This document shows, one piece after another, positions 12,024-25,023 of a DNA stretch of 64,000 nt. Position 1 is the stretch's first letter. Each line of letters starts with the position of its first letter. Below the pieces are notes generated by a model, which was not told the origin of the DNA, ran no database searches, and saw only the letters and a program-made list of their open reading frames with translations. The stretch is from Luteolibacter pohnpeiensis (GTDB taxonomy: Bacteria > Verrucomicrobiota > Verrucomicrobiia > Verrucomicrobiales > Akkermansiaceae). The DNA is taken from assembly GCF_016595435.1 (NCBI RefSeq), contig NZ_JAENIJ010000017.1:1-64000 (forward strand), given 5' to 3'. Made by a program: the position numbers and the translations under genes.

Positions 12024-12099
12024 ATTTTGCTGAGTGGAATGATCGCTTCTCATCATCTTCTCATGAAAACAGGGTAGGCTGAGACACAACCTGCCTGAT

Positions 12100-12645
12100 A
12101 TGAAAGCGTTTACCTTCATTGCCGCGCTGGCACTTTTCCCGGTCGTTGCGCAGGCTGATCGACTGGAAGTGGATCAGACGAAAAGCAGAATCCAAGTGGA
12201 TGCAAAGGCGACCGGCCATGCCTTCACCGGAACGCTGCAGAAATACACCAGCGTTGTCACCGGGGACACTGCAACGAATTTGCCCACCGGATTCACCCTG
12301 AACTGGGCTTTTAGTGATCTAAAAACCGGTGAGGCAAAGCGCGATAAGGAAATGATCACCTGGCTCGGCGGCGGCAATCCAAAGGGCAGCTTCGTTTTCA
12401 CCAAAACCTGGAATGACAAAAAGTCCGGCAAGGATTACGCGATGGGCGAGCTGACCATCAATGGAGTCGCTAAAACCATTTCGTTTCCGTTCACCGTGAA
12501 GCGCGATGGCGATTGGGTGACGATTGATGGTGAAGCGGCGATGAATTATAAAAACCACGGACTGCCGTTAATCCGGGCGATGGCCATCATGACGGTCGAG
12601 CCACAGCTCAAAGTTCGATTTCATCTGGTAGGAGAGTTGAAATGA
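12100..12645 (+). CDS. YceI-family periplasmic lipid-binding protein
   Basis: A 181-residue protein with signal peptide (MKAFTFIAALALFPVVAQA) followed by the YceI fold: SRIQVDAKATGHAFTG near the start, LTINGVAKTISFPF late, and a final strand pair. YceI proteins are lipocalin-like barrels; characterised members hold polyisoprenoids or ubiquinone-like molecules. It is the first gene of the plus-strand operon and overlaps the polyprenyl synthase gene by four bases (ATGA), which makes an isoprenoid ligand likely here. The usual HA(F)TG block is kept. Confidence 0.88.
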   Translation: MKAFTFIAALALFPVVAQADRLEVDQTKSRIQVDAKATGHAFTGTLQKYTSVVTGDTATNLPTGFTLNWAFSDLKTGEAKRDKEMITWLGGGNPKGSFVFTKTWNDKKSGKDYAMGELTINGVAKTISFPFTVKRDGDWVTIDGEAAMNYKNHGLPLIRAMAIMTVEPQLKVRFHLVGELK

Positions 12646-13592
12646 GTGCTGATTTCCCCCCGCGAGACCTTTCATGGAAGCATCGTGTCCATTGCGCCCA
12701 TGCGCTGATGGCCAGCAGTTTCACTCACGGCATCGGCCGGTTGAATGGAGTTGAGCCACGGCTGGCGGCAGCGCTTTGCAATGTGCTTTCCCGTCCGGGT
12801 TCGCTGGTGCGCGCGGTTTCCTCCTATCTGGTCGGACTTTCCATGGGGATGACCGAGGAAGGTGCGCGCTCGCTCGGTTGCGGCATTGAATATCTTCATA
12901 CGGCATCACTGATTTTTGATGACTTCCCGGCCATGGATGATGCCAAGTTGCGACGGGATGCGCCATGCCTGCACGTCAGCCATGGAGAAGCGGTCGCCAC
13001 CTTGGCAGCCCTGGCACTGATCAATCGTGGCTACACTCTGATCTGGCAGACCATTCATCAGGCCGCGCCGTCGAGGCGGGCCGAAGCCGGGAATTGGGTG
13101 GATTCCAAACTGGGAGTGCATGGCTTATTGGGCGGTCAGGCGTGGGATTTGCATGGCTGGGACGATCACCAAACCGCTGCGGAAGTCAGCGAGATTGCCG
13201 CCCGAAAGACCGCCGATTTGTTGCGGTTGACCTTGGTGTTGCCTGCGATTGTCGGGCATGGCACCCGCCGTGAAATCCGCTTGTTAGACCGCTTGGCGTT
13301 GTTGCGTGGCTTGGCCTATCAAGCTGCGGATGATGTGAAAGACCTTTACGCGGATGAATTTTGCTCGGGTAAAACCGGAGGGCGCGATCAAGAGCTTGGA
13401 CGCCCCAATTTGGTGGTGGCTGAAGGATTAACAGCTGCCACCGCTCGATGTGCGCGACTCGTTTCGATGGGGGACCGGGTTCAGCACGCGCTTCCTGGCG
13501 CTGCGCACCGCTGGAACATGCTGGATCTCATCCGGGTGCCCGCGCCTCGGCAAGTCATGGGATCGCTTGAGCGGTTGCCGGCAGTGGTCTAA
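12642..13592 (+). CDS. Polyprenyl (farnesyl/geranylgeranyl) diphosphate synthase
   Basis: A 316-residue prenyl chain elongase. The first Asp-rich motif DDFPAMD (D93-D99) and the following RRD, and the second motif ADDVKD (D230-D234), provide the Mg-diphosphate sites; the residues before the first motif (HTASLIFDD) are typical of the family. Product length cannot be fixed from sequence alone; short-chain (C15-C20) is suggested by overall form. The start overlaps the YceI stop. Being inside an operon for an exporter and cytochromes, rather than beside dxs or quinone genes, is unusual and suggests a dedicated isoprenoid product. Confidence 0.88.
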   Translation: MSADFPPRDLSWKHRVHCAHALMASSFTHGIGRLNGVEPRLAAALCNVLSRPGSLVRAVSSYLVGLSMGMTEEGARSLGCGIEYLHTASLIFDDFPAMDDAKLRRDAPCLHVSHGEAVATLAALALINRGYTLIWQTIHQAAPSRRAEAGNWVDSKLGVHGLLGGQAWDLHGWDDHQTAAEVSEIAARKTADLLRLTLVLPAIVGHGTRREIRLLDRLALLRGLAYQAADDVKDLYADEFCSGKTGGRDQELGRPNLVVAEGLTAATARCARLVSMGDRVQHALPGAAHRWNMLDLIRVPAPRQVMGSLERLPAVV

Positions 13593-17024: not shown

Positions 17025-18817
17025 GAGGACTTGCGTGGCGGGCATCCTGTTTGGTGGCTGCGGTCTATGGGTATTTCCTCATCTTCGCCCAATTTGCCTG
17101 GGTCGAATTGATTCGCAGCGCAGGCGGACAGGAAAAGCCGATGCTCGGAGCGATGGCTGTCGCTGGAATGGCTGCTGGATTCTGGATCGCGTGGAAGGGC
17201 GTGACCGCTGGAAAAATCCGCATTGGTTTGGCCTTGGCGGCACTTGCATCTGCTCTGGCACCACTGGCTGATGGCATGATGTCCATGCTGACGGTTTCCA
17301 TTCTAACAGGAATTGGTGTCGGTATGTCGACCGTCGGCCTGGCAACCTTGCTGCCATCATGGTGCGGCTTGTTCTGGGTCGGATTGGGAACCGGGGTGGG
17401 TTACGCCTGCTGCAATTTGCCGATCGTTTTTCAGCAATCCTCGGCACACCAGGCATGGATCGGGTCGGTGTTCGCTGTGGTTGGTCTGCTGGTGTTTCCA
17501 GGGAATCAAAATACTCACCATGAGGAACCGCCACGGCGCGAAATTCCCTTTGTGAGTGTGCTGGTTTTGTTCACCGCGCTGGTTTGGTTAGACAGCGCTG
17601 CGTTTTTCATCATCCAACACGCAGTCGATCTGAAATCCGGCACTTGGGGCAGTGGATTGCTGTGGCGGAATGCTGCTTTGCATTTGGCGGCAGCCATCGC
17701 GAGTGGAGTTTGGTTGAAAAGTTGCCGACGAACATTCGTGCCCGCATCGGCTTGGGGGCTACTCGCAGTGGCCGCTTTAGCAGTGAACCACGAAACATCC
17801 CGTTCTGTTGCAGGGTGGCTTTATCCGGTTGGTGTCTCACTCTACTCGGTTGCATTGGTTGCATGGCCCGGCTGGTTTTCGGGAGCGCGTGCGCAACATT
17901 CTATCGGCTGGCGCGCTGCTTGGCTGTTCGCCATCGCCGGTTGGTTTGGATCCGCCAATGGGATCGGCATGGCCGAAACATTACAGAGAGTTCCGGTAAC
18001 TTTTATTCTGATTTCTGGCGTGTGCGTGCTTGGGGTTTTGGTGAGTTCCAATCGACTCTCGTGGAGAGTTTTGACCGCTGCTGCGATCGTGTGGGTTGTC
18101 GCATTTCTGGGTGAGAAAAAAGCGGATGTTCCGGAGACGGATTCAGTGGCACTGGGAAAGCAAGTGTATCTCGCCGAAGGTTGCATCCATTGCCACTCGC
18201 AGTATGTCCGGCCCGGTTCGCTGGACGAGTTGAATTGGGGCCCGGTGCGCACGGATAGCTTGAAAGGCAAGCCGGTGGTCATCGGCAATCGCCGCCAGGG
18301 ACCCGATCTAACCGATGTTGGCGCCCGTCGATCCGCGACTTGGTTGAAATTGCATTTTATCAATCCACAAGCGTTCTCTCCGGGTAGTCCGATGCCATCG
18401 TATGCTTATCTTTTCAAAGATCGTCGTGGAGATGACTTGGTGCATTATCTCCAGGCAAACGGTTTGGATGGAATGACTGATGTCTTTCAAAAAGCAATGA
18501 CCTGGCAGCCGGAATCAAGCCAGTCTGCAGGTCGTGGAGCGGAGCTATTTCAAAATCATTGCGCTGTCTGTCATGGAGCGAGTGGCAAGGGTGATGGGGA
18601 AATGTCAGGTTTACTGACAAAAGCTCCGGCAAATCTCGTCGATGGCCCATTTGTCTGGTCGTCAGCGGGAACCGGGAGGATCCGGCAAATCATCAAGTTT
18701 GGCATACCAGGGACGGATATGCCTGGGCACGAAACGCTCAAGGATGAGCAAATTGTTGCTCTTGAAGAATTCGTATCATGCCTCAGGAAATTAGCTTCCG
18801 AAACGGGACGAGAATAG
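17021..18817 (+). CDS. MFS-like membrane domain fused to CcoO-type and second c-type cytochrome domains
   Basis: A 598-residue fusion. The ATG at 17021 overlaps the upstream stop and opens the first helix; a longer frame from 16934 has no support. Residues 1 to about 360 hold ten to twelve helices with an MFS-like look. Then comes a CcoO/FixO domain with heme motif C388-I-H-C-H392 followed by SQYVRP, the axial Met region PGSPMPSYAYL, and finally a second cytochrome c domain with C514-A-V-C-H518 and Met in GTDMPGHE. CcoO normally has a single N-terminal anchor, so the polytopic front is unusual. It probably passes electrons to or from the oxidase-like protein two genes upstream. Its 3' end overlaps the convergent deacetylase gene by 35 bases. 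Confidence 0.85.
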   Translation: MRGLAWRASCLVAAVYGYFLIFAQFAWVELIRSAGGQEKPMLGAMAVAGMAAGFWIAWKGVTAGKIRIGLALAALASALAPLADGMMSMLTVSILTGIGVGMSTVGLATLLPSWCGLFWVGLGTGVGYACCNLPIVFQQSSAHQAWIGSVFAVVGLLVFPGNQNTHHEEPPRREIPFVSVLVLFTALVWLDSAAFFIIQHAVDLKSGTWGSGLLWRNAALHLAAAIASGVWLKSCRRTFVPASAWGLLAVAALAVNHETSRSVAGWLYPVGVSLYSVALVAWPGWFSGARAQHSIGWRAAWLFAIAGWFGSANGIGMAETLQRVPVTFILISGVCVLGVLVSSNRLSWRVLTAAAIVWVVAFLGEKKADVPETDSVALGKQVYLAEGCIHCHSQYVRPGSLDELNWGPVRTDSLKGKPVVIGNRRQGPDLTDVGARRSATWLKLHFINPQAFSPGSPMPSYAYLFKDRRGDDLVHYLQANGLDGMTDVFQKAMTWQPESSQSAGRGAELFQNHCAVCHGASGKGDGEMSGLLTKAPANLVDGPFVWSSAGTGRIRQIIKFGIPGTDMPGHETLKDEQIVALEEFVSCLRKLASETGRE

Positions 18818-19580
18818 CATGGGCATTCCGGAGATCTGCTTCGAATGCATCGCTGGAGAGATAATCATATTCAACCGTTCTCGCATTCGGAATCGGGTCA
18901 TCGGGATCGTTGCATCGATGTCCTGGATGGCACATGATGAGTGTGGAATCCGGCACATTCCGAATCCAGTTTTTCATGTGAACCTCAAAATCCGACGGGC
19001 GATCTAACAGGTAGATGCCAGCAAACCAGGGATTTCCCGGATAAGTGTGTGAGAGTGCCGGCTCGCCAATCTGCGACAAGAATTGAAGGATCGCTCGTTT
19101 CACCAGCAACTTTGGATGCCAGGAGAACGTGGCGGATGGTTTGGCAATTCTTCGAACTGGAAATGCCTCGGGCGCGCCGAGTCGACCCAGAGTGTCGGCG
19201 ATGATTTCGCTGACTCCCGGGAGAATGTGAACATGTTGGTGTCCGTCCAAATAGTCCGGGCTTTTGCCGAGGACTTGTTCAAAGTTCCGCCACTGTGAGA
19301 TCAGCGCCTCCCGAATTTCAGAGGCGTTGAGTTTGCCTCGTAAAGAATCGCCGATCCACTTTTCGAGTGGCTTGCCGGTTTGATGGGTGAGGTTGAAGTG
19401 GAGACCTGTGTCGAAGTTTCCTGAACACGATTGCAGCAACTTTCCTTCGTAGGGCCAGTGTTCGGTCGTGGTGAAACAACTCACGGCGGAAATACGCCCA
19501 CTTTTCGCCAATTCCCGAATGCCATGTGAGATCCCGGGGTTTTGAGCGTAATCGTCGGCGCAGAGCGTGAGGCGTTTCAT
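18783..19580 (-). CDS. YdjC/ChbG-family sugar deacetylase (NaxD-like)
   Basis: A 265-residue cytoplasmic metal-dependent deacetylase. The start is the ATG 19578-19580, giving the family N-terminus MKRLTLCADDYAQN (metal Asp pair D9/D10) and overlapping the GtrA stop by four bases. Later metal/active-site residues are in LDGHQHVHILPGV (D112, H114, H116, H118) and MCHPGH. The ChbG/YdjC family removes acetyl groups from N-acetyl sugars; NaxD members act on undecaprenyl-phosphate-linked hexosamine before its transfer to lipid A. Its place behind ArnT-, GT2- and GtrA-type genes strongly favours the NaxD role over chitooligosaccharide breakdown. It converges on, and overlaps, the cytochrome fusion gene. 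Confidence 0.85.
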   Translation of the reverse strand: MKRLTLCADDYAQNPGISHGIRELAKSGRISAVSCFTTTEHWPYEGKLLQSCSGNFDTGLHFNLTHQTGKPLEKWIGDSLRGKLNASEIREALISQWRNFEQVLGKSPDYLDGHQHVHILPGVSEIIADTLGRLGAPEAFPVRRIAKPSATFSWHPKLLVKRAILQFLSQIGEPALSHTYPGNPWFAGIYLLDRPSDFEVHMKNWIRNVPDSTLIMCHPGHRCNDPDDPIPNARTVEYDYLSSDAFEADLRNAHAILVPFRKLIS

Positions 19581-19996
19581 GGCGCCTTCCGATGAAATAC
19601 CCAAAACCGGCAAAGTAGGAAAGTCGATGCTGCCACGGTTCCCAACACCAGGAGCAGGGCGAGTCGCGGAGGCAGATTGGTGAAGTGGAGAAGTAGCGCG
19701 TAGAGCATTTCGTTTCCTGCAAATCCGGCCAGGGCGGTGGCCGCGAAACGCGGAAGGCTCGAGCGGTCCCACTCTCCCTGACTTGCAAAGCTCCACTTGA
19801 GATGACCCGCGTAGCTGACGGGAAATGCTGTTAGAAATGCCCCAACATTGGCGATCAAAGGCGGCACCCCCAAGGCCATCCACAATGAGGCCGCGATGAA
19901 GTGCACGGTCATCGCAAGTATGCCGACAACGATGAAGCGGATGGCTTGGGTGCTGATTTCTTTTTGTGAGCTAATCAACTCAGGCAGTAGTCTCAT
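19577..19996 (-). CDS. GtrA-family small membrane protein
   Basis: A 139-residue protein with four transmembrane helices (FIVVGILAMTVHFIAASLWMAL, IANVGAFLTAFPVSYAGH, FAATALAGFAGNEMLYALLL, LLLVLGTVAASTFLLCRFWVF) and the GtrA sign FxxxRxWVF-like CRFWVFHRK near the end. GtrA proteins are thought to flip undecaprenyl-phosphate-linked sugars. It overlaps the GT2 gene upstream by 17 bases and the deacetylase gene downstream by four, so all are one transcript. It may play the part that ArnE/ArnF play in enterobacteria. Confidence 0.88.
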   Translation of the reverse strand: MRLLPELISSQKEISTQAIRFIVVGILAMTVHFIAASLWMALGVPPLIANVGAFLTAFPVSYAGHLKWSFASQGEWDRSSLPRFAATALAGFAGNEMLYALLLHFTNLPPRLALLLVLGTVAASTFLLCRFWVFHRKAP

Positions 19997-21047
19997 GATA
20001 GCGTGTAGGTCCCGAGTCGTTTGCGACGATGTAAATAGGGCGTCCTTTCACTTCCTCGAAAATCCTGCCGACATACTCCCCTAGAATTCCGATGAATAGC
20101 AACTGGATCCCGCCTAAAAACAGAATGGCTGTGGTGAGAGTCGCCCAACCCGGAACGGCATTGCCGAAAATCAGGGTTTTTCCGGCGACCCAGGTCGCAT
20201 ACAACATCGAACAAACCGAAATCGCGGCTCCGGCCATGGTGGCGAAACGAAGCGGAACCTGTGAGAAAGAGGTGAGCCCGGTAATCGCCAGGCCGATGAG
20301 GCGTGGAAAGTTGTAGCGTGATTTGCCCGCTCCACGCACCAGCGGCTGGAATGGAACGGCGATGCTTTTAAAGCCTACCCAATGGTAAAGGCCTTTCATG
20401 AATCGGTTATTCTCTGGCAGGGCTCGCAGAGCATCGGCAACCTTGCGATCGATCAGGCGGAAATCTGTGGCATCGGGTGGAATCGGGACGCTGGATAGCC
20501 TTCCCAGAATTTGATAAAACATCCGGGCGGCCTGCCGTTTGGCATTCGTTTCATCGCTGCGATTACTACGAACGCCGTAGACCATGTCATTGCCTTCTTT
20601 CCAAAGTCGGATGAACTCAGGAATCAGATCGAGAGGGTGCTGAAGGTCTGCGTCAATGATGATCACCGCATCGCCCCGGGCGACATTGATCCCTGCGGAC
20701 ATCGCTCGCTCTTTGCCGAAATTTCGGGAAAGGCGCAGCAGTCGCAGGGGTAAATGATCCAGCAATTGGGTGACGACCGCGACGGTTTCATCCCGGCTGC
20801 CATCGTCGATGATGATGATTTCACAGCGATAGCCAAGCTGCTTGCTGGTCTCGGTGAGACCTTTGCACAACGTCGGCAGGTTGCCTGCTTCGTTGTAAGC
20901 CGGGACGACGAAACTGAGCTCGGTATGGGCCACTTCCACTCGGTGAAGAAGGTCGGATGCAGGTTGGTGAAATCGGACAGGCCCTGATTTGCGGGTGCGC
21001 TTGAGAGCGGGGCCTCTCAGGGTGACGATGTTAGTGGGTTGAGGCAT
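19980..21047 (-). CDS. GT2 glycosyltransferase making undecaprenyl-phosphate sugar (GtrB/ArnC/FlmF2-like)
   Basis: A 355-residue family-2 glycosyltransferase. The GT-A domain starts at LSFVVPAYNEAGN (about 45), with IIDDGSRDE, the DXD-like IIIDADLQHP, and the acceptor loop around QILGRLS...IPPDATDFRLIDR. Two C-terminal helices (RFATMAGAAISVCSMLYATWV and ATLTTAILFLGGIQLLFIGILGEYVGRI) anchor it as in ArnC and GtrB. It transfers a sugar from a nucleotide to undecaprenyl phosphate at the inner face of the membrane. The 40-residue lead before the domain is basic. Overlap with the ArnT-like gene is 17 bases. Confidence 0.9.
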   Translation of the reverse strand: MPQPTNIVTLRGPALKRTRKSGPVRFHQPASDLLHRVEVAHTELSFVVPAYNEAGNLPTLCKGLTETSKQLGYRCEIIIIDDGSRDETVAVVTQLLDHLPLRLLRLSRNFGKERAMSAGINVARGDAVIIIDADLQHPLDLIPEFIRLWKEGNDMVYGVRSNRSDETNAKRQAARMFYQILGRLSSVPIPPDATDFRLIDRKVADALRALPENNRFMKGLYHWVGFKSIAVPFQPLVRGAGKSRYNFPRLIGLAITGLTSFSQVPLRFATMAGAAISVCSMLYATWVAGKTLIFGNAVPGWATLTTAILFLGGIQLLFIGILGEYVGRIFEEVKGRPIYIVANDSGPTRYHETTA

Positions 21048-22530
21048 TTGCAGGCAGGTGTTCGGGTTTTTCAGCCAATAAAGTTTCGTTGCCGATGGTG
21101 GTGACTTCGTCGAAGCGCTGACCGACCAGCTTGCGTATTTTTTCGCGATCCTTGCTGCGGATCACCACCAAGTCCTGAGTCTGGTTTGCGGTGAGCGGTG
21201 GCAGATCGGCATCCGAGATGAATTCGATTTGTTTGCCGTGATAGAACACAGCGGAATAAGCGGTCGGCCTACGGTAATAGAGAGTGTAATTCTGATACTC
21301 CGGGTGGCTTTGGATGAAGCCGATCATTCGCTTTTCCGAATCCTTCGGTGCGAGATTCGGGAACTTCTGATAGATGACCCAAATGCCAGCCATCAAAATG
21401 ATGGCGAAGGCGGTGCCGGAACGAAGCAACACTTTGATCCGGTCCGGGCGGAAGCTCAGTCTCCATGCTTCCAGGATGAGAATCGCCGCAGCGGGCATCC
21501 CGGTGATGGGGTAGGTGGAAATGATATTTCTTGAGAAGGTGAAAAAGACCCACGGCGCCAAGGACCAGCACAGCAGGTAAGGCAACCAGCGGTCGCGATC
21601 TGTGGAGAACGCTTCACGAACTTTGCTCTTGCTCCGGAAACATCCTGGGATCGAAACAAACAATGAGATCGACCATGGCATCAGCGCCATCATTGCAAAA
21701 AACCAGATCATGCCTCGCGCTGCCGGATGGGCGTGGCCATACATGTCGCCTTTCCAGCCCTTGATCAGAAAGCGTCCGAAATGTTCACCGAGGATGAAAT
21801 AGTTGAGAAATCCCGGAGTCTTGATTTCCGCTGCTGCATACCAGGGGGCGGCAATGGCGAGAGCGAGCAAGCCGCCCGTGATCCAGGGAACTCGCTTCCA
21901 CACCGCCGGGATCTGACGCGTCCACAGGGTCCAGATGCCAATCGGGAGCATGGTCAGAACCGTGGACACCGGACCTTTTGCGAGCAGTCCCAACCCGATG
22001 CCGACAAAGAATAAATACCCCCAAAGTCGAGTCCTTGATGGACCATGCATGGCATTCCAGAAGGCAATCATGCAAAACGTCGTCGATGCCATCATGGCCA
22101 GATCGGTCATGACCGTGCCGGAGGTGACGATGAAGAGAACCGAAGTGAAGAGGATGAAAGAAGATGCCAAGGCGAAGTCCGCGCCTCGGATTTTTTTCAC
22201 CCATTGATACAGCAGCGCGACGACTGCGACTGCTGTGAGGAAGATGAGAATGCGTGCGCCGAATTCGTTGGCGCCAAAGATTTCGATGCCGCCAGCAGCG
22301 AGCCACATCGAGAGCGGAGGTTTCGCCCAAAATGGATTTCCAGGGGTGATTTGCGGAGTGATCCAATCGTGGGAAACGGTCATCCACCGTGCCATTTCCG
22401 CGTAGCGGGACTCGCTATTGTCGGTGAAGGGGATCTGAAAGAGCATCGCAATCCGCATCAGGAAAACGATGACGAATGCGGCGAGAATACCTCGCTTCGT
22501 TCGGGTAGTGAATGAGTAGGACTGCTGCAT
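21031..22530 (-). CDS. ArnT/GT39-type lipid A glycosyltransferase
   Basis: A 499-residue membrane enzyme of the GT-C fold, with about twelve helices and a C-terminal periplasmic domain. The first periplasmic loop DNSESRYAEMARW (from D37) carries the acidic and Arg residues conserved in ArnT, and PFWAKPPLSMWL continues the family block. ArnT moves a sugar from undecaprenyl phosphate to lipid A. First gene of the four-gene operon with GT2, GtrA and YdjC-type genes. A direct-repeat operator lies 46 bases upstream of its start, and a hairpin separates it from the sensor-kinase gene, so it has its own promoter. Confidence 0.9.
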   Translation of the reverse strand: MQQSYSFTTRTKRGILAAFVIVFLMRIAMLFQIPFTDNSESRYAEMARWMTVSHDWITPQITPGNPFWAKPPLSMWLAAGGIEIFGANEFGARILIFLTAVAVVALLYQWVKKIRGADFALASSFILFTSVLFIVTSGTVMTDLAMMASTTFCMIAFWNAMHGPSRTRLWGYLFFVGIGLGLLAKGPVSTVLTMLPIGIWTLWTRQIPAVWKRVPWITGGLLALAIAAPWYAAAEIKTPGFLNYFILGEHFGRFLIKGWKGDMYGHAHPAARGMIWFFAMMALMPWSISLFVSIPGCFRSKSKVREAFSTDRDRWLPYLLCWSLAPWVFFTFSRNIISTYPITGMPAAAILILEAWRLSFRPDRIKVLLRSGTAFAIILMAGIWVIYQKFPNLAPKDSEKRMIGFIQSHPEYQNYTLYYRRPTAYSAVFYHGKQIEFISDADLPPLTANQTQDLVVIRSKDREKIRKLVGQRFDEVTTIGNETLLAEKPEHLPANASTH

Positions 22531-22576
22531 CGTGGACCACCCTGCCGAAGGGTATGTTCACGAAACTAGCCACTTT

Positions 22577-22594
22577 TGATGAGAATCTCATGAG
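22577..22594 (-). promoter_or_regulatory. Predicted response-regulator box of the ArnT operon
   Basis: Direct repeats TGATGAG (22577-22583) and TCATGAG (22588-22594), four bases apart, giving an 11-bp period. On the coding strand they read CTCATGA-N4-CTCATCA, 46 bases before the ArnT start. The same layout occurs before the neighbouring response-regulator gene. OmpR-family dimers bind head-to-tail half-sites 10-11 bp apart, as in the PmrA box. Prediction only. Confidence 0.6.
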
Positions 22595-22600
22595 ATGGCC

Positions 22601-22619
22601 GCGCTTTTCCGAAAAGCGC
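22601..22619 (-). terminator. Stem-loop after the sensor-kinase gene
   Basis: A perfect 8-bp stem GCGCTTTT/AAAAGCGC with a 3-base loop lying directly against the stop codon of the histidine-kinase gene. No separate T tract follows on the minus strand, so it may be a weak terminator or a 3'-end stabiliser. Confidence 0.5.
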
Positions 22620-24056
22620 TCAGGCCGGTAGCTCGAATTGAAAAGTCACGGCATTGGGGTCCTCAAACAAAACCTTCAAGTTGCCACCGAGCATGGTGGC
22701 AATTTCACGCGCGAGTGAAAGGCCGATCCCGGCACCCGGGCTGTCGGCATTGGCTTGTGGCCCGCGTTGAAACGGCTCGAACAGACGATTCGAATTTTCC
22801 GCCGAGAGCGAGCCCCGGTCGTTGGAGATGGATAGCGCGAATCGTTCCTGGGTGCTCAGGAGTTTGACGGTGATTTTTCCACCCTTCGGACTGTGGCGAA
22901 ATGCGTTTTCGATGAGATTGGTCGCGAGAATATTGAACAAACCAAGATCGGTAAAAATCGGCACGAGCTCATCGGATTCCCTGATGATTTCTGCTAGATG
23001 CGAGCTCTGATCGGTTTCCTGCTCCATCTCGATGATGCGGCTGATCAGGTCCTCCGGTGGAAATTTCTGTTTGCTGATGCGCTCAAGGCCACCTCTCAGC
23101 CGGGCCATGCGCATTAGGCTGTTGATCACCACTCGCATGCTGGAGGTGATCTCCATTGCCGCTTCCATGCGTTTGCGCAAATCGAGTGTTTCGCGAGGTC
23201 GATGCAGCGCCGCTTCGAGAGTGGAGTGAATGCCGGCGATGGGTGTCCGGAGTTCATGCGCCGCGTGCAGTGCGAAGTCCCTCTCATGCTCGCGCGCGGC
23301 TTCGATTTTGGTGAGAGTGGTATTGAACGCTTCGGCCAGTGGCACCAGTTCGCTCGGAAGGTCGACGGGGATTTCGAGCGGTGGATTCTTTTCCTGTGTG
23401 GTCCGCTTCAACAAGGCGGATGACAAATGGCCGATGGGAGCCAGGGTGCGTTTGGAAATGAAGATGATTGCCAGCCACAGGGTGGTGACTGTTGCGAGTG
23501 TGGCGAGCAGAAGGTGCTTGCGGATGGAGAACAGCTGCTTTTCCAACGATGAGGTCTCACGGGCGGTGACCAGAATTTGAGGCAGCTCTTCGACTTTGCG
23601 GTCGATGCCAAGCCGTGCCATTTCGGCTTTTCCTTCTTCGTCCAGGAATGGCAGATGCATGAGACCGACCGCACGTCCCGCGCGACCGTCGGCGAATTTA
23701 ATATCGCGAATCACCGGTTGATTCAGCGCTCCGTGAAACTTTGGCAGGTTTTCCGATTTTAAATCGGGTGAACGCAGGGTTGTGTTCGAATTGATGTCCC
23801 AGAACTGGAAGACACCGCTGATGCCGGGACCGTCGCCGGATTCCATCGCTTCATGCCATTCATAAACCACTTTTCCGCCTTCCAACTCGGAGTATTTGGA
23901 TAGAATCGAAGCGCTTTGGAAAAGCTGGAGATCCAGTTCATGCCGCAACGATCTGGCTATCGCTTGATAGACGCTGAAATTCGCGATCGCCAGGACGAGC
24001 GCGGTGAGCAGGCAACTTCCGAGTATCAGGCGTTTGCGGATCGATGGATGCTTCAT
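22620..24056 (-). CDS. Sensor histidine kinase (HAMP, HisKA, HATPase)
   Basis: A 478-residue inner-membrane sensor. TM1 is near residues 11-32, a periplasmic sensor segment follows (about 33-180), TM2 is LLLATLATVTTLWLAIIFI near 190, then HAMP, the dimerisation domain with phospho-acceptor H267 in HAAHELRTPIAG, and the ATPase domain with N box NLIENAFRHSPKGG and G boxes NDRGSLS and GAGIGLSLA. Domain order matches PmrB/QseC-type kinases. The start overlaps the response-regulator stop by four bases, so the pair is co-translated. The periplasmic part has acidic and basic patches, but I cannot name the signal. Confidence 0.93.
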   Translation of the reverse strand: MKHPSIRKRLILGSCLLTALVLAIANFSVYQAIARSLRHELDLQLFQSASILSKYSELEGGKVVYEWHEAMESGDGPGISGVFQFWDINSNTTLRSPDLKSENLPKFHGALNQPVIRDIKFADGRAGRAVGLMHLPFLDEEGKAEMARLGIDRKVEELPQILVTARETSSLEKQLFSIRKHLLLATLATVTTLWLAIIFISKRTLAPIGHLSSALLKRTTQEKNPPLEIPVDLPSELVPLAEAFNTTLTKIEAAREHERDFALHAAHELRTPIAGIHSTLEAALHRPRETLDLRKRMEAAMEITSSMRVVINSLMRMARLRGGLERISKQKFPPEDLISRIIEMEQETDQSSHLAEIIRESDELVPIFTDLGLFNILATNLIENAFRHSPKGGKITVKLLSTQERFALSISNDRGSLSAENSNRLFEPFQRGPQANADSPGAGIGLSLAREIATMLGGNLKVLFEDPNAVTFQFELPA

Positions 24057-24730
24057 GAATTCGGTGGGCCTAATGCATAGCCATAACCGCGACGAGTATG
24101 GATCAGATCAGGCTTGTCGCCATCATTGAGTTTTTTCCGCAGGTATCCAATATAAACATCGACGGCATTGCTGGATCCGCCGGTGTGATCTTCATAAACA
24201 TGCTCCCAAATATCGGTGCGGGACACCGGTTCGCCCGCGCGTTGGGCAAGGTATTCCAAGAGGTGATATTCGCGGCGTGTTAGATCGATTTCTGTTTTGC
24301 CCCGTGTGACTTTCTTGTGGACGCAATCGATCTTGAGATCCGCGATTTTCAGAATGGATGACTCGTTGCCATACGAGCGGCGGCTGAGCGCGCGGATGCG
24401 GGCCACCAGCTCCGCAAGATCGAAGGGTTTGACCAAATAATCATCGGCCCCCGCATCCAGTCCTTCGATCCGTTGCGATACGGAATCCCGCGAGCTGACC
24501 ACGAGAACGGCGGTCTTGTCCTGCAGTTCACGCAGCTTTCTCAGAATCGTCAGGCCATCGATTTCCGGCAGCATGATATCGAGAATGATCACATCATACG
24601 GATGATTCCGTGCATACCACAGCCCTTCGTCACCCGTTGCGCTGCTGTCCACGGCGTAGCCTTCTTCGCGTAAGTATTCCTCCACATTGTGGCGGAGTGG
24701 CGTGTAATCTTCGATTAATAGGCAGCGCAT
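24053..24730 (-). CDS. OmpR-family response regulator
   Basis: A 225-residue regulator. Receiver domain 1-120 with acidic pocket E7/D8, phospho-acceptor D51 (IILDIMLP), conserved Ser/Thr near 79-80 and K101 (LVKPF). The winged-helix output domain (about 128-222) ends with VDVYIGYLRKKL and IHTRRGYGYAL, typical of PmrA/QseB/PhoP. First gene of the two-gene operon with the kinase. Direct repeats 34 bases upstream suggest autoregulation, and the similar box before the ArnT operon names its likely target. Confidence 0.95.
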   Translation of the reverse strand: MRCLLIEDYTPLRHNVEEYLREEGYAVDSSATGDEGLWYARNHPYDVIILDIMLPEIDGLTILRKLRELQDKTAVLVVSSRDSVSQRIEGLDAGADDYLVKPFDLAELVARIRALSRRSYGNESSILKIADLKIDCVHKKVTRGKTEIDLTRREYHLLEYLAQRAGEPVSRTDIWEHVYEDHTGGSSNAVDVYIGYLRKKLNDGDKPDLIHTRRGYGYALGPPNS

Positions 24731-24764
24731 GATTTGGTGATTTCAGATTAACGAAGCATGCCAA

Positions 24765-24782
24765 TCATGAGAGAATCATGAG
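24765..24782 (-). promoter_or_regulatory. Predicted response-regulator box of the two-component operon
   Basis: Two identical half-sites TCATGAG at 24765-24771 and 24776-24782, four bases apart (11-bp period); coding strand CTCATGA-N4-CTCATGA. The nearer edge is 34 bases before the response-regulator ATG, close to where a promoter would sit. The same order and orientation occur before the ArnT operon, so autoregulation plus target control is proposed. Confidence 0.6.
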
Positions 24783-24801
24783 GGAAGAGCACGATAAATA
24801 A

Positions 24802-24833
24802 CCGCTCTGACAGAATTCAATCTGTCAGAGCGG
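24802..24833 (-). terminator. 12-bp perfect stem-loop, probable minus-strand terminator
   Basis: CCGCTCTGACAG (24802-24813) and CTGTCAGAGCGG (24822-24833) pair without mismatch around an 8-base loop. On the minus strand it is followed by TTATTTAT, a moderate T-rich tail. It would end transcription coming from the acetyltransferase gene about 190 bases upstream and insulate the response-regulator promoter. Confidence 0.65.
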
Positions 24834-24984
24834 CGACACATACAACTCCTTCTGTTGAGGGGTTTCCGATTCGTTTGTTGGGGCGTCACAGGATGGCTGG
24901 CCCCGTTCCCCTGGCGCCATCACCATCCAGTTCCACTTCCATCATCCTGTCTGTTGGAAACTTGAGTGATATCTACTCTGAGTT

Positions 24985-25002
24985 TGATGATAGTTTGATG
25001 AT
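24985..25002 (-). promoter_or_regulatory. Third 11-bp-spaced direct repeat of the same form
   Basis: TGATGAT at 24985-24991 and 24996-25002, part of an exact tandem 11-mer AGTTTGATGAT (24981-25002). Spacing and orientation match the two boxes at 22577 and 24765 but the last base differs. It lies about 255 bases upstream of the response-regulator start. It may be a second operator or a chance tandem duplication. Confidence 0.35.
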
Positions 25003-25023
25003 AAATCAATGGTCGCGATCACA

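Follow-up and report, generated by a model that had tools for sequence, protein, structure and literature searches.

On the minus strand of the window, by which we mean the whole 64,000-nucleotide stretch of DNA that was analysed, six genes follow one another in the order response regulator (RR), sensor histidine kinase, ArnT-like glycosyltransferase of the PMT family, GT2 glycosyltransferase, GtrA-like protein and YdjC-type deacetylase. The RR (24053..24730) is a member of the OmpR/PhoB family with a receiver and a winged-helix domain (Pfam Response_reg and Trans_reg_C), and its best NCBIfam model is cztR_silR_copR (222.9 bits, below the cut-off of 279.2). The kinase (22620..24056) carries Pfam HisKA and HATPase_c, a HAMP domain just under the Pfam cut-off and a weak, below-cut-off match to 2CSK_N; its best NCBIfam model is of the CopR/CusR type (136.5 bits, below the cut-off of 292.55).

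The ArnT-like protein (21031..22530, minus strand; Pfam PMT) matches the solved ArnT 5ezm with an E value of 1.7e-21 and reaches 105.8 bits with the ArnT equivalog model, whose cut-off is 567. It is related to ArnT, yet lies far under the equivalog cut-off. Downstream on the same strand are the GT2 gene (19980..21047; domain and NCBIfam models), the product of which probably makes a polyprenyl-phosphate sugar, the substrate being assigned by inference, a gene for a GtrA-like membrane protein (19577..19996; domain search) and the YdjC-family deacetylase gene (18783..19577; Pfam YdjC), the start of which was set at the ATG at 19577. None of arnA, arnB and arnD is among the six operon genes examined. 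Since the ArnT-like protein falls below the equivalog cut-off and a YdjC deacetylase is encoded in the operon, the transferred sugar would more likely be a deacetylated hexosamine than L-Ara4N. The FlmF2-FlmK-NaxD pathway of Francisella is likewise made up of a GT2 enzyme, an ArnT-type transferase and a deacetylase, NaxD, which we take to belong to the YdjC family. The same Pfam families are found here in one operon, as a predicted pathway, with the difference that they are accompanied by GtrA and adjoined by a two-component system.

Directly after the kinase stop codon lies a hairpin, GCGCTTTTCGGAAAAGCGC (22601..22619, minus strand), which has no T-run; the 35-nt stretch around it folds at -16.4 kcal/mol. 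The original prediction let this hairpin separate the two transcription units. The hairpin is real, but because the T-run is absent the separation is not established, and the terminator scan did not list positions 22601-22619. No Rfam family reached its gathering threshold in the 64-kb window.

Direct repeats upstream of the RR and ArnT-like genes

Two direct-repeat sites on the minus strand precede the two operons: CTCATGATTCTCTCATGA (24765..24782) lies 34 nt before the RR ATG at 24730, and CTCATGAGATTCTCATCA (22577..22594) lies 46 nt before the ArnT-like ATG at 22530. They had been predicted as CTCATGA-N4-CTCATGA and CTCATGA-N4-CTCATCA at these distances and in one common orientation, and both positions and the shared orientation toward the genes were borne out. 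Each site consists of two half-sites that point in the same direction and are about 11 bp, i.e. one helical turn, apart. Exact matches to CTCATGANNNNCTCATSA number two in the 64 kb, namely these repeats. Allowing up to three mismatches gave 10 matches against a shuffle mean of 12.26; matches at this level were rejected as evidence, and only near-perfect copies are thus meaningful. The direct repeat common to both 150-nt upstream stretches agrees at 13 of 14 positions. A shared repeat of at least 13/14 occurred in none of 20,000 dinucleotide-shuffled pairs of the upstream stretches, and one of 13/14 in a single case among 19,905 random pairs of window stretches.

Using CTCATGA-N4-CTCATGA with a maximum of one mismatch, four places were found in the whole 4.67-Mb genome. 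Three of these are inside the window, 33, 34 and 46 nt before start codons on the same strand, whereas the fourth (C176, L004) falls inside two open frames, 153 and 100 codons long, and appears to be a chance match. The site 33 nt upstream, CTCATCATCTTCTCATGA (12049..12066, plus strand), is new relative to the two repeats of the original prediction and precedes a gene for a YceI-domain protein (12100..12645, plus strand; Pfam YceI, E 3.1e-11), which is followed by a polyprenyl synthetase gene (12642..13592, plus strand; model searches).

The motif that had been proposed for a genome scan, TSATGAK, did not hold in this form. While the repeat itself is real, the bases 3' of CAT vary and TCTCAT is kept, so that the conserved core is TCTCAT with a period of 11. 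The repeat would have been discounted if it were as frequent inside genes as upstream of them. This check came out in its favour: all three exact TCTCAT-N5-TCTCAT copies in the genome are situated 22, 35 and 48 nt before start codons, one of which belongs to an unproven 46-aa ORF.

A possible degenerate site, TATCATCAAACTATCAT (24987..25003, minus strand), can be listed tentatively. It has two mismatches from the core and TAGATA 11 nt downstream; comparative support for it was not found. On the minus strand, this repeat with its TAGATA (24970-25003) is followed by a region with a 33-aa ORF (24825-24926) and a strong, terminator-like hairpin (24801-24834) before the RR promoter, an arrangement that possibly corresponds to a short separate transcript.

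Sites elsewhere in the genome and in the family

When one mismatch to TCTCAT-N5-TCTCAT was allowed, the genome of the organism yielded 19 matches, 14 of which, including the RR site, have no TA 10 or 11 nt downstream. Of the five matches with a TA, one (L195) stands before a frame that by eye resembles an antisense artefact, and the other four precede the YceI gene, an ArnT gene, a TolC-like gene and the 46-aa ORF. Altogether, sites in this genome are found before the RR, the ArnT-like gene, YceI, a second ArnT, a TolC-like/RND operon and the 46-aa ORF. The second ArnT (C110:1979-3487) is 48% identical to the first and has CTCATCACAACATCATGA 45 nt before its ATG. The operon at C110 9020-3567 encodes a TolC-like protein and an RND protein (Pfam OEP and ACR_tran) with a middle ORF between them for which no significant Pfam match was obtained.

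At L206 (15117-15293, minus strand), an exact site has TATCGA 11 nt downstream; the 46-aa ORF, which contains one hydrophobic stretch, follows 5 nt beyond this. No clear homologues of this ORF were detected in 260 family genomes. Weak matches (E 0.009-0.036) appeared in 3 of the 259 other family genomes, with no site copy of fewer than two mismatches near them, and conservation of the ORF as a small protein was not upheld.

Candidate -10 elements, assigned from the spacing, are TAGTTT (22563..22568, minus strand) at the ArnT-like promoter and TAGGCT (12075..12080, plus strand) at the YceI promoter, both 10 nt after the second CAT. Of 27 sites that had not been selected for TA, 13 have a TA at a distance of exactly 11 nt from the second CAT. 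Among the 27 is L176, which a mis-set start truncates so that no TA can be seen; a further 6 of the original 33 sites were dropped, as they had been chosen with or partly by TA. These spacings agree with a fixed distance to a putative -10 element, the RR site of this genome excepted. Frequent continuations are TAGGCA, TAGGTT and TAGGCT. The site and the start codon are separated by 25-26 nt in several relatives, for which almost leaderless transcripts are therefore predicted. The promoter scan reported no sigma-70-type -35/-10 promoter at these sites.

To compare relatives, 260 genomes of the family were searched. The kinase was matched at E <= 1e-60 in 35 genomes, with the best six candidates per genome scored, and ArnT-like genes were matched at E <= 1e-80 in 34 genomes at 35 places. 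Loci were available for 31 of these places (all except those of G108, G083, G079 and G157), and a G009 promoter detected in a kinase locus was added, which gave 32 ArnT-like promoters; each was scored by the best match to the 12 positions of TCTCAT-N5-TCTCAT within 250 nt upstream. All 16 promoters from genomes with a kinase match (15 genomes, 4 genera) scored 10-12, whereas the 16 from genomes without one (16 genomes) scored 6-9, none of them reaching 10. Sites like CTCATGAGATTCTCATCA are thus kept upstream of ArnT-like genes in relatives with the two-component system. As the genomes are related and six ArnT sites of g6, all reading CTCACCGGATTCTCAT, are nearly the same sequence, these counts cannot be treated as independent. 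The ArnT-like gene of G043 carries the repeat although the two-component system is on a different contig, which makes this a case in trans. The ArnT-like promoters of G051 and G170 have six and four half-sites, respectively, in 11-bp steps. The split of 16/16 against 0/16, the G043 case and the second ArnT of the organism itself support the earlier claim that the repeats are shared sites of an OmpR-family regulator.

Sites like CTCATGATTCTCTCATGA are also present in RR promoters of relatives, 11 of 46 of which reach 10 of 12; one of these sites (L152) is far upstream and doubtful. For several ArnT-linked RRs a site on the same strand is missing or the site is reversed; the RR-proximal sites are reversed in G152, G153, G155, G161, G233 and G234. 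Autoregulation of the RR was consequently not upheld as a general rule. The reversed site of G233 and G234 faces a small ORF and a gene (DUF3570 domain in the G233 copy). In G153 the RR is preceded by two sites, at L214 (1653-1752, minus strand), that face away from the gene; both have TA at 11 nt, and no gene that would account for them was found on their strand. The recognition helix is the same in RRs that lack a promoter site, and one operator may therefore serve several paralogues. A contig scan with the RR as query yielded only relatives of at most 52% identity, which were left out of the footprinting.

The pattern combined with the -10 element, at one mismatch or fewer, gave 36 matches in 15 genomes with the system (16 already known sites and 20 new ones) and none in the backwards control; these genomes are 15 of the 35 with a kinase match and were chosen where sites had mostly been seen already. 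In 15 genomes without the system there were 18 matches (control 2), 14 of them from one 11-bp tandem array in G028. This array, TCTCATTTCGG, lies at two contig ends (L251, L253-L265) and is a source of false matches. A site in G012 (L249), a genome with no kinase match at E <= 1e-60, is located 60 nt before an ORF that is PMT-like by eye and does not fit the split between genomes with and without the kinase. Exact matches to the pattern were restricted to 17 of 386 genomes of the order, i.e. 17 of 227 in the own family (control 2) versus 0 of 159 in other families (control 3). One of the 17, in G027, is inside an open frame and may be due to chance.

Some relatives have sites at further kinds of genes. 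Related TolC-like, middle and RND genes stand behind the ArnT-like operon on the same strand in G156, and the TolC-like gene of G009 has a site of its own. In G004 and G009 (L268, L241), the site is followed by a 49- or 61-aa ORF with one hydrophobic stretch and then by a sulfatase-fold gene. G045 has a site before remote relatives of GT2 and ArnT, both with 27% identity. In G043 and G155 the distance from the site to the YceI gene downstream is 594 and 710 nt, respectively, and the interval contains a gene on the opposite strand (L228, L221), which a transcript started at the site would cross in antisense. Sites also precede methyltransferase-like genes (L224, L244, L217 6854-7636) in G161, with two copies, and G154, this assignment being based on Pfam for the G154 copy and on likeness by eye for the others.

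Proposed regulation and alternative readings

Since related bacteria keep the repeat before the same kinds of genes, it is very probably where the encoded regulator binds to control them. OmpR/PhoB regulators bind as tandem dimers to direct repeats, and PhoP uses a strict 7-bp motif with a 4-bp spacer and binds three or four motifs in a row more tightly (PMC4832192). Because the repeats here have this form, we take them as predicted activator sites of the RR encoded between them, with autoregulation in this genome, and hold this reading with high confidence on the basis of sequence comparison. Two RR molecules would occupy TTCTCAT half-sites at a spacing of 11 bp, arranged head to tail, and cover the -35 position, and RNA polymerase would be recruited to a -10 element that lies some 11 nt further downstream; a TA at this distance is the layout expected, by analogy, of an OmpR/PhoB-type activator. 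The RR would thereby switch on its own RR-kinase operon and the ArnT-like/GT2/GtrA/YdjC operon, and the other sites would extend the regulon to YceI-polyprenyl synthetase, the second ArnT, the RND efflux operon and the 46-aa ORF. The output would likely be the transfer of an amino sugar onto lipid A or another outer-membrane glycolipid, together with efflux. The sequences themselves show the sites, how they are conserved, that they occur together with the two-component system, and the -10 spacing; from these we infer binding by the RR, activation as opposed to repression, the sugar and the stimulus.

It is unlikely, though of the alternatives this one fares best, that the RR binds these sites as a repressor or that its effect at its own gene is repression. 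The lack of TA at 10 or 11 nt from the RR site of this genome and the reversed RR-proximal sites in the six genomes named above would suit such a role, whereas the fixed 11-nt distance to TA at the ArnT-like genes has the layout of an activator site, and repression is also at odds with the negative sigma-70 promoter scan.

Still less probable is that the repeats are bound by a different OmpR/PhoB regulator, which could be PhoB or a paralogous RR whose recognition helix is the same, and that the encoded RR acts on other targets. In favour of this, RRs with no site in their promoters have almost the same recognition helix, and exact matches to the pattern also occur in G004, G034 and G045, whose kinases are more distant. 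Against this, the sites precede the RR gene in G000 and its relatives, and at ArnT-like genes they track the presence of the kinase. The PhoB box, CTGTCAT-N4-CTGTCAT, has the same layout of 7 + 4; this genome has no exact copy of it and 12 places with one or two mismatches, none of them at these promoters. A chance similarity of the two upstream stretches can practically be dismissed: at three mismatches shuffles contain the motif at least as often, and the same core occurs in the unrelated array of G028, but none of the 20,000 shuffles reproduced the repeat, which is kept before ArnT-like genes in four genera.

Relation to known regulons

The predicted sites of the encoded RR resemble the operators of PhoB and Mycobacterium PhoP (PMC4832192) in having 7 bp plus 4 bp, head to tail, with longer arrays possible, and differ from them in half-site letters and targets. 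For PmrA of Acinetobacter baumannii at pmrC and naxD, the repeat is given as TTTAAG-N5-TTTAAG, with an 11-bp period (PMC10927774). PmrA (BasR) is also an OmpR/PhoB-family RR with a direct repeat of this period, and it governs envelope-sugar genes including a deacetylase of the YdjC-family type. However, its half-site is TTTAAG, whereas the core conserved here is TCTCAT and not of the TTAAG type, and the RR and kinase remain below the cut-offs of the PmrA (184.3 of 330 bits) and PmrB (97.4 of 314 bits) models. Among the residues of PmrA that contact bases according to PMC4660055, those at positions 195 and 196 are replaced in the RR (H to G and N to Y) in an alignment with the solved BasR chain 4s04, presumably the protein of that study. 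The likeness to PmrA that had been proposed stands for the direct-repeat form; the RR scores best against a CopR/CusR-type model and passes neither cut-off, and PmrA is therefore to be regarded as an analogy. The CopR/CusR/CzcR heavy-metal systems provide the best NCBIfam models for both RR and kinase and share an RND efflux operon with the predicted regulon, but both proteins lie below the cut-offs and the targets here include ArnT-like genes.

We describe a predicted new regulon of a known kind, the half-site of which was not found in print: among the matches listed, no open-access paper describes a TTCTCAT/TCTCAT operator of this sort. A wider reading, which we put forward tentatively and with somewhat less than even confidence, is that a CopR/CusR-like system of a single family has independently assembled a PmrA-like envelope-defence regulon with a half-site of its own, TTCTCAT, at a fixed distance from the -10. 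Its members would be ArnT-type transfer, a sulfatase-fold (EptA/LtaS-like) transferase, RND efflux, YceI-polyprenyl synthetase and short membrane peptides with one helix, and the small distance between site and start codon would often leave the mRNA almost leaderless. The peptides of 46-61 aa behind some sites would act in feedback, much as MgrB or PmrR do.

For the outer-membrane sugar modification of these bacteria, the analysis supplies a candidate operator, a likely regulator and a list of targets. If the interpretation is right, polymyxin-type defence regulons would exist outside the PmrA lineage that follow the same logic with other operator letters.
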